Shown here: positions 2,413-6,044 of the stretch, one piece after another | Position numbering within the stretch: the first letter of the stretch is position 1 | Layout: every line of letters begins with the position of its first letter | Assembly: GCF_000421605.1 (NCBI RefSeq) | Contig: NZ_ATXI01000004.1 | Location: 1-64,000, forward strand | From: Thermodesulfobacterium thermophilum DSM 1276 | GTDB lineage: Bacteria > Desulfobacterota > Thermodesulfobacteria > Thermodesulfobacteriales > Thermodesulfobacteriaceae | Length of the DNA stretch: 64,000 nucleotides | Direction: 5' to 3' | Program-made: the position numbers and the translations under genes | Notes under the pieces: generated by a model | The model's database searches: none | What the model saw: the letters and a program-made list of their open reading frames with translations, nothing else | What the model was told of the DNA's origin: nothing

Positions 2413-2527
2413 ACAATCTCCTCCTTTTTGTTAATATTTTTAAAAATAGAGGCAAACAATTCCTTAAACTTCAACCTTTTTTCATAATCTCACCCCCCCT
2501 AATTTGTCTTTATTCTGTTGTAAAAAT

Positions 2528-2543
2528 TGCAAAAACTATACCA
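2528..2543 (-). promoter_or_regulatory. Sigma-54 (-24/-12) promoter of the yeiH unit
   Basis: On the minus strand the sequence is TGGTATAGTTTTTGCA. The GG (2541-2542) and GC (2529-2530) are separated by exactly 10 bases, as required for RpoN promoters, and the TTGCA element is intact. The -24 part is weaker than consensus (TGGTA for TGGCA). Transcription would start near 2517, about 105 bases before the exporter ATG. The gene just upstream encodes an NtrC-class activator, the type of protein this promoter class needs. Confidence 0.75.
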
Positions 2544-2608
2544 ATTATTTTGTTATTTTATTTTTTATAAATATGTAGAAAAATCTAAAGTTTAAGACCC
2601 TATTAATT

Positions 2609-2674
2609 TGTGACCTAATTTTGCATGTTACCTAATGGTAACATATTTTGAAGATTGTGTTTCTTTTGGGTAAC
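2609..2674. promoter_or_regulatory. Upstream activator site cluster for the NtrC-type regulator
   Basis: A perfect inverted repeat with 8-base arms, ATGTTACC / GGTAACAT around TAAT, lies at 2625-2644, about 110 bases upstream of the predicted sigma-54 start. A related copy, TGTGACCTAAT (2609-2619), matches 10 of 11 bases of TGTTACCTAAT (2626-2636). A further half-site GGTAAC occurs at 2669-2674. Spacing and symmetry fit binding by dimers of a Fis-type HTH activator. That the neighbouring regulator binds here is inference. Confidence 0.65.
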
Positions 2675-2695
2675 TCAAAGTTAAAAAACTAAGAG

Positions 2696-4081
2696 CTACT
2701 CTTCTGATTGGATTGCATCCTCTGAGTGATGGTAAAGAAGGTTAAATTTTTTGAGTTTTTGCCATAGGGTTTTTCTACTGATACCTAATTTTTTGGCTGC
2801 TTCGGTTTTGTTCCAGTTGGTTTCTATTAAAGTTTTAAGTATAAATTCTTTTTCTATAGATTCCTTAGCAAGCTTATAATCCGAAACATCTTTTGCTTCT
2901 GATTTAAAACTCTGGCTTATTTCCTTAGGTAGATGGTCAAGAGTAATCTTACCGTCTACGGCTAATAAAACCGCCCTTTCTATGGCGTGCTTGAGTTCCC
3001 TTACGTTACCAGGATAATCATATTTTATCAAAGCTTGAAAAGCTTCTTCTGTTATCTGAGGTAAAGATCTTTGAAACTCCTCAGAAAAATATTTTAAATA
3101 ATAATTAATTAAGATGGGAATATCTTCTTTTCTGTCTCTAAGGGGAGAGATCTCTATAGACATTACGTTTATTCTGTAGTATAGATCTTCTCTAAATTTG
3201 CCTTCTTTTACCAACTGTTTTAGGTCTTTACTGGTTGCATAGATGAACCTTACATCAACCTTAATAGGTTTATCTCCTCCTAATCGATAAACTATTTGGT
3301 CTTCTAAAACTCTTAGAAGTTTAGCTTGTAGGTTCTGAGGTAGTTCTGCTATTTCATCCAAAAAAAGCGTTCCTTTGTTAGCCAGTTCTAACATACCTTT
3401 TTTGGAATTATGAGCACCGGTAAAAGCCCCTCTTTCATAGCCAAAAAGCTCTGCTTCAAATAGATTTTCAGGAATGGCTGCACAATTGATTTTAAGATAA
3501 GGATTTTTTGTTCTTAAGCTTAAAGCCTGGATACAATCTGCTACCAACTCTTTTCCTGTGCCACTTTCTCCCAAAATAAGCACAGGAACGTCTGTTTTGG
3601 CTACAAGCTCTATTTTATTGATTACCTCTTTTATAGCCTTACTTTCTCCTACTATTTGCCTTAAAGCCTCTTTTTCTCTTAATTTTTCTCTTAGTTCATC
3701 TACCTCTTTTCTTAAATTTTTAAACTCAAAAAACTTTTCAACTACAACCATCAATTCTTCATTACTAAAAGGTTTAGCTAAGTAATCGAAAGCCCCTTCT
3801 TTTATAGCCTGTACCGCACTTTTAACCTCAGCAAAGGCAGTAATCATTATTATCCCAGTTTGTTCTTGTTTTTCTTTAATTTTCTTAAGTAAGGAGATAC
3901 CGTCTATGTCTGGAAGTTTAAGATCAAGGATGCACAGGTCAAATTTTTGTTCTGCTATTTTCTTTAAAGCATCTTCTCCTTTCTCACAAGTATCTACTTC
4001 AAACCCCTGATCTTTAAGATAATGAGACAAACCAAACAAAATTATTGGTTCGTCGTCTACTATCAGTATTCTACCTTTCAT
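2696..4081 (-). CDS. NtrC-family sigma-54-dependent response regulator
   Basis: A cytoplasmic transcriptional activator of 461 residues with the full three-domain plan. The receiver domain (about 1-120) has acidic residues D9/D10, phospho-acceptor D53 in LCILDLKLPDIDG and the lysine in LAKPFS. The AAA+ domain (about 140-380) has Walker A GESGTGKE, the sigma-54 contact loop GAFTGA and a Walker B ending LFLDEI. The C-terminal Fis-type helix-turn-helix contains NKTEAAKKLGISRKTL. Its start overlaps the end of the sensor kinase gene by 11 bases, so the two should be translated together. All key residues look intact although the partner kinase carries a nonsense codon. The likely target is the sigma-54 promoter 150 bases downstream of its own stop. 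Confidence 0.93.
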   Translation of the reverse strand: MKGRILIVDDEPIILFGLSHYLKDQGFEVDTCEKGEDALKKIAEQKFDLCILDLKLPDIDGISLLKKIKEKQEQTGIIMITAFAEVKSAVQAIKEGAFDYLAKPFSNEELMVVVEKFFEFKNLRKEVDELREKLREKEALRQIVGESKAIKEVINKIELVAKTDVPVLILGESGTGKELVADCIQALSLRTKNPYLKINCAAIPENLFEAELFGYERGAFTGAHNSKKGMLELANKGTLFLDEIAELPQNLQAKLLRVLEDQIVYRLGGDKPIKVDVRFIYATSKDLKQLVKEGKFREDLYYRINVMSIEISPLRDRKEDIPILINYYLKYFSEEFQRSLPQITEEAFQALIKYDYPGNVRELKHAIERAVLLAVDGKITLDHLPKEISQSFKSEAKDVSDYKLAKESIEKEFILKTLIETNWNKTEAAKKLGISRKTLWQKLKKFNLLYHHSEDAIQSEE

Positions 4082-6044
4082 GTATCCTTCGCCCCTCTAA
4101 AGGTATTTCCACTACAAAGGTAGTTCCTTTTTCAGAGGTAGTAAACCATATTTTTCCTCCATGTTGTTCCACAATAGACTTGGAAATAAATAAACCAAGC
4201 CCGGTGCCTTTACCCAAAGGTTTAGTAGTAAAAAAAGGATCAAAAACTTTTTCTGCTACATGTGGCGGGATACCTGAACCTGTATCTGACACCTCAATAA
4301 ACATTTTACTATCTTTATGATAAACTTTTATGGTTAAAACTTTTTCTTCAGAATTTTCCATAGCATCTACCGCGTTTAAAATCAGGTTAAGTAAAACTTG
4401 TTCGATTTTGTTTGAATCTAAATAAACGGGACTTAAATTTTGTTCTAATTCTATCTTTAGTTTTATACTTTTTTCTTTTAAATAATAATTTATCAATTTT
4501 AAAACATTTTCTATCAAGTCTTTAACCTCACAAACTCTAAGATTTAGCTCTGTTGTCCGAGAAAAATCAAGTAATACCTTTATTATGTTTTGAATACGGG
4601 ACAATCCCTGGTTTATAAGTTCTATATGTTGATTTTTGGTTTTCTCATCCATAGAACTTCTAATAACATTATCTAAACATAAAATAATTCCACCTAAAGG
4701 ATTATTTATTTCATGAGCTATGCCTGCGGCAAGTTGCCCTATAGCAGCCAATTTTTCAGTAATAGCCATCTGTTCTTCTATTCTCTTTTTTTCTGTCACG
4801 TCTTCTACGTAGTGAACTACCTTTATCACTTTACCGGTTTGATCAAATACCGGATAGAGATGGGTATAATAATAACCTCCTTCAGGTGAGCTGATATACT
4901 CTGACACAGGGTGTTTAGTTTCAATCACCTTTCTTATCAGAGCTATAGGGCAGGTTTTATTTTTGTCTGCTTTAAGTGGATCACATTCCGTATTAAAAAC
5001 TGGTCCTTTTTTTTGACTTATCCATTCTTGATAGGCTTTATTACTAACCTCTACTTTACAGTTCAGATTAACCAACGCTAAAGGGTCTGTTATGTGGTTA
5101 AATATGGTCTGTAAGGTTTGAGCATAGGTTTTGATAGCTTCTTGTGCCTCAAAAAGATGATTAGCTAACTGATTAAAAGATTGAAGAAGTTCTCCTATTT
5201 CGTCCCCTCTTTCTACTTCTAATCTTTGGCTTAAAGGAGCATTTCCAGAAATAATATTTTTAAAATGGACTGTAAGTTTTTTTATAGGTCTACCTACTAT
5301 AGCCCAAAAAACTCATTCTATGGTTACTAACAACAAAATAACGGTTAACATTCCAGAAATAAAAGTGATAATTGCAATGTGTTTTATTTCTAACAACCAA
5401 TTTTCAAGAGGTACATAAATAGCCTCTAATCCCATCAAATCCCCAACCCTCCAGAGGAAATCTTCTTTCCGGGGATAGATCTTAAGAAGACTTTTGGGGG
5501 CGTCTTTTGTTTTACCATGACATACAAGGCATTCCCTTTCCACATGGATAGGTTTTATAACCACAAGATATTTATCTTTGTTGAAATCTACAATATTTTC
5601 CCAACGTTTAATCTCAGGATTCTGCATAAAATTTTTTAAAATTTTTCTTTCAAAATCGTTAGGTAAATGTTGTGGATTTATAGGTTTTAGAGAAACCCTT
5701 CTATAATCATAATCAACAAACTTAGTTTTAAACCTTTGCATTACTTTTGTCCTAATATGAGTGGTAGACATGGCTTCTAAAATAAAATCTTCTTTTATGT
5801 TTGATTCTTTAAAAAATCTAAAAAGAGAAGGTCTTAACTCCTCTTTTACATAATCCCCCAAGGCATCTATTTGAGTAATTAATAGTTCAGCCTCCCTTCT
5901 TGCCTCCTCCAGTGCTTGATTTTTTAAAAAGTAATAAATTATCGTAGAAAAAAGAAAACAGAAAAGAGTAATAACAAACAGAAGATACAGGATAAACTTT
6001 GTACTTAAACTTAGATTTTTAAAAATGAATTTGATTTTTTTCAT
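4071..6044 (-). pseudogene. Heme-type (DUF3365) membrane sensor histidine kinase interrupted by in-frame TGA
   Basis: One frame of 658 codons with a single internal stop, TGA at 5313-5315 (codon 244). Before it: a membrane helix (about 15-39), a periplasmic DUF3365/Tll0287-like sensor domain with a c-type heme motif CLVCH at 172-176, and a second membrane helix (about 223-241). After it, in the same frame: a HAMP domain (VGRPIKKL to GDEIGELLQSF), a PAS domain, a HisKA domain with AHEINNPLGG and a HATPase domain with DTGSGIP and GKGTGLGLF. Both parts are well preserved and only one base separates TGA from TGG (Trp), so the change is recent, a sequencing error, or a recoded codon. A TTG at 5075 could start a soluble PAS-kinase fragment. 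As read, the membrane sensor and kinase parts are separated. The gene overlaps the downstream regulator by 11 bases. Confidence 0.85.

Follow-up and report, generated by a model that had tools for sequence, protein, structure and literature searches.

Does the 283-bp spacer that separates an NtrC-type regulator gene from a yeiH-like transporter gene in the heat-loving sulfate reducer Thermodesulfobacterium thermophilum contain the elements through which the regulator would switch on the transporter? The genome measures 1.79 Mb, and the spacer lies in the opening 64 kb of its contig 4, a stretch to which we refer as the window. It is part of a minus-strand cassette comprising, in order, genes for a sensor kinase (6044-4071), the NtrC-type response regulator (4081-2696), the spacer itself (2413-2695), the transporter (2412-796), a 56-aa protein (760-590) and a TauE/SafE (TSUP) protein (526-2) cut by the contig end. 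The coordinates and the minus-strand layout confirm that, as the initial annotation had it, an NtrC-type gene directly precedes the spacer, which is bounded by the stop of the regulator gene (2696) and the start of the yeiH-like gene (2412).

To interpret such a circuit we first consider what its protein components are. The 538-aa transporter is a member of the PSE family (PF03601; 78.8 bits against a gathering score of 24.5), and its closest named relative in our search comes from Thermodesulfobacterium hveragerdense (96% identical). It scores only 45 bits against the YeiH subfamily model TIGR00698, far under the cut-off of 232.6; hence the earlier designation as a YeiH exporter holds at the level of the PSE family and is otherwise too specific. 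In Desulfovibrio vulgaris (PMC10102598), growth with molybdate improved when most of the DVU0542-0545 genes, the PSE gene among them, were disrupted, and the kinase was needed under molybdate. As this phenotype would also fit oxyanion uptake, we avoid the term exporter for the transporter of the window. Its residues ~400-470 form a coiled-coil-like inserted loop that occurs in some clades, is short or absent in the 480-aa versions of others and weakly matches HpsJ/FcmC membrane proteins. A search of the PDB for sequence relatives returned none. The 56-aa protein has a single predicted TM segment and no Pfam or NCBIfam match. It accompanies this transporter subfamily across phyla, the pair being common to most of the loci that we collected, and we take it to be an undescribed partner of the transporter. 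In T. hveragerdense an FmdE-family gene is found between the small gene and TauE (L052, 8024-8647). The regulator combines a receiver domain, a sigma-54-type AAA+ domain with the GAFTGA motif and a Fis-type HTH, as is typical of NtrC-type bEBP response regulators; at 411.4 bits against the NtrC equivalog TIGR01818 (cut-off 558.6) it is NtrC-like rather than NtrC.

The putative sigma-54 promoter, TGGTATAGTTTTTGCA, is located on the minus strand at 2543-2528, with TGGTATA and TTGCA as its -24 and -12 boxes separated by GTTT, and predicts a transcript start at ~2517. It displays GG-N10-GC at -24/-12 and the genome encodes RpoN elsewhere. The consensus TGGYAYRN4TTGCW has two perfect matches in the 64 kb, of which this is one, and allowing up to one mismatch yields 4 matches against 1.7 expected. 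Taken by itself the site is weakly significant (p ~0.02 within the upstream region), and finding one sigma-54 match in the window is close to what chance would give. Together with a 9/12 sigma-70-like site at 2571-2544 this might suggest that all the spacer elements are chance sites in A+T-rich DNA and that the yeiH-like gene is driven by a sigma-70 promoter. However, sigma-70-like sites number 17, against a shuffle mean of 17.2, and the palindrome, its spacing and the sigma-54 site are conserved with the regulator across phyla, as detailed below, leaving this explanation a very slim chance. The GG-N10-GC spacing reported by the initial annotation is thus present, but its strict -12 GC is lost in several close relatives: the -12 box is TTGTA in one with 96% protein identity, TTGTT in one with 94%, and TTGAT, TTGAG or TTGAA in other Thermodesulfobacteriaceae. 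These relatives retain the -24 GG and the position of the site. The yeiH-like gene of the window is predicted from these features to be sigma-54-dependent.

Further upstream lies a perfect 8+8 palindrome, ATGTTACC-TAAT-GGTAACAT, whose arms reach 2625-2644 around the core TGTTACC-TAAT-GGTAACA (2626-2643). Its centre is ~117 bp from the predicted transcript start. Generic palindrome p-values computed without a motif are uninformative in such A+T-rich DNA; the motif itself has one match in the window at up to 3 mismatches against 0.04 expected, and is single in the whole genome at up to 2 mismatches. The second copy that had been proposed is also real: TGTTTCTTTTGGGTAACT at 2658-2675 is a weaker candidate site that matches 11/14 motif positions, is kept in 4/4 Thermodesulfobacterium loci and is centred 32 bp, or three helical turns, from the centre of the main palindrome. 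The further half-site TGTGACC (2609-2615) is present as described but is not conserved. The location of the main palindrome 50-70 bp past the regulator's stop codon would suit a transcription terminator of that gene. We rejected this candidate, whose probability we judge close to negligible, as the stem is A+T-rich without a T run, was unflagged by a terminator scan, and is also present in divergent layouts, where no gene ends at that point. Paired enhancers of the NtrC type consist of two palindromes that are separated by ~3 helical turns and lie 70-130 bp upstream of the -24 box, and the arrangement in the spacer is the same; it differs in the site itself (TGTTACC-N4-GGTAACA) and in apparently having one target in this genome.

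The regulatory idea was compared across relatives. We collected 84 non-redundant loci, all encoding relatives of the transporter, of which 74 had enough upstream DNA, and scored a sigma-54 site as positive when it was better than 95% of shuffles, using a matrix of our own weighting. Such a site was recovered upstream in 16/20 loci with two-component genes against 6/54 without them (Fisher p=3.5e-8), a value to be read with the phylogenetic correlation of the loci in mind. The scored sites lie 87-181 bp ahead of the start codon, nearly all at 118-181 bp. The 18-bp architecture TG-N3-CC-N4-GG-N3-CA, at 13 or more of 15 positions, is present upstream of the promoter in 16/24 sigma-54 loci, where shuffling predicts 0.07; the control upstream regions gave 1/38 against 0.16 expected. 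The architecture was derived from part of the tested set, with L066, L067 and L139 fitted afterwards, which makes its p-value optimistic. In 15/20 loci the second-best copy of the locus's own motif is 31-33 bp from the first, the three helical turns expected for paired enhancers. The core of the site also tracks the recognition helix of the regulator by lineage, TGTTACC going with SRKTLW and TGTT(C/G)CC with SRKVLW, and TGCNKCC-type sites accompany a second, more distant type of regulator with an HTH ending in Q-K-I.

The association persists across three layouts, in which the kinase/regulator pair is upstream and co-directional with, divergent from, or downstream of the transporter gene, and extends to genomes in which the two are apart: in G419, G420 and G421 the sites do not adjoin the regulator, and an ortholog of it is present (58-60% identity, with a cut-off of at least 52%). 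Conversely, eight transporter genomes without sites (G005, G002, G111, G076, G143, G422, G425 and G426) lack a regulator ortholog, the best full-length hit being at most 49% identical. The exceptions to this pattern are G424, the locus L131, where two-component genes are present and a site is absent, and the genome of L063, which encodes a 53% identical regulator yet is without a site. Hence the conservation before yeiH that had been called for as a check is found, and the regulatory reading of the spacer is well supported by comparative genomics, because site, regulator and promoter co-occur and the sites vanish without the regulator. By these criteria the predicted kinase/regulator/sigma-54 wiring is retained in relatives from at least two phyla.

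The same comparison bears on whether the palindrome serves another promoter, in autoregulation of the two-component genes or of a divergent operon, and not that of yeiH. In L055 and L117 it separates yeiH from a divergent Fer4/cytochrome b561 operon, and in L072, L127, L133, L138 and L139 it could serve a divergent kinase operon. In the window and many relatives, however, the regulator gene is upstream and co-directional, leaving that of yeiH as the sole promoter downstream of the palindrome, and the scored sigma-54 sites point toward yeiH; we accord this alternative a slim chance. The operon that shares the yeiH regulatory region in L055 (4088-5729) and L117 encodes a 4Fe-4S protein of the Tat type together with cytochrome b561, and it is possible that these divergent electron-transfer genes are co-regulated with yeiH.

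Searches with the motif, which are blind to protein similarity, recovered the exact palindrome in 6/30 genomes of the family, in 5/6 of these before the transporter gene, and never in a backward-read control. The one extra place found is in G022, where it precedes an operon encoding a universal stress protein (USP), a PF03601 transporter, a second USP and a TM protein (L190, 1796-5082), with AGGAATGAAAATTGCT, again of the form GG-N10-GC, between palindrome and start codon. This match is independent of the protein search, because the transporter of the operon is only 23% identical to that of the window. The layout resembles the D. vulgaris DVU0542-0545 operon in joining universal stress proteins to a PSE transporter. 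G022 also has a yeiH copy of its own, which carries a frameshift, and a regulator ortholog that contains a stop.

At the input end, the sensor kinase contains a Tll0287/DUF3365 domain (PF11845; sCache_heme) with a CLVCH motif, followed by a HAMP-type junction, PAS, HisKA and HATPase domains, and the CxxCH is present in 17/17 of the sensor kinases. In a recent preprint (PMC12889525) such domains are described as c-heme Cache domains whose signalling members resemble NO sensors. By analogy with other Tll0287-HAMP proteins, NO or redox would be the likeliest signal of the kinase. An in-frame TGA at 5313-5315 interrupts the kinase gene; at this position a Gly codon (GGA/GGG) is found in T. hveragerdense and in two further Thermodesulfobacterium genomes. 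Given these Gly codons we rejected selenocysteine or another form of recoding, and the TGA reflects an error in the assembly or else a recent nonsense mutation. The kinase of L060, which also comes from a draft assembly, has an in-frame TAG near the same junction. Owing to the nonsense codon the circuit may be uninducible in this strain, and it could be that relatives have a genuine, ancestral wiring that is dead here through truncation of the kinase, expression then being low or dependent on cross-talk. The TGA at a Gly position speaks for this; that the regulator, all sites and the remainder of the kinase are intact and well conserved speaks against it, as do the possibility of an assembly error and the comparable stop in the L060 draft. 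We consider it unlikely, though well above the other alternatives; it is compatible with the preferred explanation for the family, and the two likelihoods are not mutually exclusive.

The above observations make it highly probable, in our estimate, that the cassette encodes a two-component circuit leading from a heme Cache kinase through an NtrC-type regulator to the sigma-54 promoter of the yeiH-like gene. What the sequences establish is that the elements exist, are conserved, co-occur with the regulator and have matching spacings; binding, sigma-54 dependence, the direction of phosphotransfer and the signal go beyond this and are inferences. In such a circuit the extracytoplasmic c-type-heme Cache kinase (4071-6044) would phosphorylate the regulator (2696-4081), which would then bind the palindromes at 2626-2643 and 2658-2675 on one face of the helix and contact the RNA polymerase-sigma54 at 2543-2528 by DNA looping. 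Transcription would open at ~2517 and proceed through a leader into the yeiH-like and 56-aa genes, and probably tauE; sulfite, sulfate or another oxyanion are candidate substrates of the transporter.

The leader itself contains a mini-ORF, ATG AAA AAA GGT TGA (MKKG*; minus strand, 2485-2471), with an SD-like AGGGGGGGTGAG ahead of it (2500-2489). Homologous mini-ORFs of 4-5 codons are present in eight Thermodesulfobacteriaceae genomes, encoding MKKG* (four), MPGKG*, MRGKG* and MLGKG* (two, with different codons); their Gly and Lys codons vary at third positions and the peptide end K-G-UGA is retained. Scanning 99 whole genomes with two ORF patterns gave one match in each of eight genomes and none in backward-read controls; 7/8 directly precede an intact transporter gene and the eighth, in G022, precedes the frameshifted copy. 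The relatives share a strong leader SD, AAGGAGGTGA, between promoter and yeiH, and the window's own GGGGGTGA can pair with the anti-SD of its 16S 3' end (GGATCACCTCCTTT) with one G-U. Other clades often keep an extra SD without the mini-ORF, and at least 7 nt of SD occur within -140..-30 in 17/72 loci against 2.7 expected. A fold acting as an attenuator was considered and rejected: the leader of the window does not outperform its shuffles (z +1.6), three of the six leaders folded do so (z ~-1.9 to -2.9) without a common shape, and no conserved leader RNA fold emerged. An Rfam search found no family in the leader, the sole match being a tRNA outside the region. We advance two candidate roles, a translated mini-gene or SD-bound ribosomes that shield the 5' end of the mRNA. 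A purpose-built, translated mini-gene of the form SD-AUG-[x-Gly/Lys]-Lys-Gly-UGA that controls the transporter post-transcriptionally is a tentative proposal, to which we give a little less than an even chance; it would act via ribosome occupancy, stalling at the stop codon or SD-mediated protection of the mRNA, and would add a second layer of control beneath the sigma-54 switch. A leader mini-gene of four to five codons appears to be new.

If this reconstruction is correct, an uncharacterised transporter cassette of sulfate reducers and Nitrospirota becomes a regulon whose operator code can be read, the newly recognised c-heme Cache sensors gain a concrete candidate target in the form of a sulfur-oxyanion-type transporter, and direct tests become possible both of the substrate and of the inducing signal, be it NO, redox or sulfite. 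The operator code is new; the case also has a heme-Cache input and the mini-ORF leader, an unexpected post-transcriptional element and the least expected of the three.

Control of PSE transporters by sigma-54 and NtrC-type regulators as such is established in D. vulgaris: nine operons under sigma-54 that contain TSUP or PSE transporters are listed (Kazakov 2015, PMC4641369), DVU0539 and DVU0946 bind and activate such promoters, with reporter activation for pDVU0542 (Rajeev 2011, PMC3333781), and the DVU0542 operon encodes a PSE transporter, DVU0543 (PMC10102598). Hence the initial supposition that YeiH-family transporters are not described as sigma-54-controlled fits Salmonella, where YeiH confers sulfite resistance under the LysR regulator YeiE (PMC12880088), but does not extend to the PSE operons of D. 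vulgaris. The Salmonella pair shares with the window a PSE-superfamily transporter adjoining a regulator gene; it differs in its one-component LysR regulator, and the window transporter falls under the TIGR00698 cut-off. The DVU0540/DVU0539-DVU0542-0545 and DVU0943-0946 circuits of D. vulgaris have NtrC-type sigma-54 regulators directly controlling PSE (TC 2.A.98) operons, a small TM protein, and a regulator gene that adjoins the operon or belongs to it. The window has this combination of NtrC-type regulator, PSE transporter, small TM gene and sigma-54 site; the likeness, including that to its transporter, is one of architecture, and the regulators differ. Universal stress proteins belong to the DVU0542-0545 operon, as in the G022 operon, and a mini-ORF leader is not mentioned in the available D. 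vulgaris texts. With the sCache_heme sensors, as presented in the available part of PMC12889525, the kinase shares the Pfam domain, the CxxCH and a membrane-bound signalling architecture; no target gene is given there, whereas here we propose a conserved target operon.
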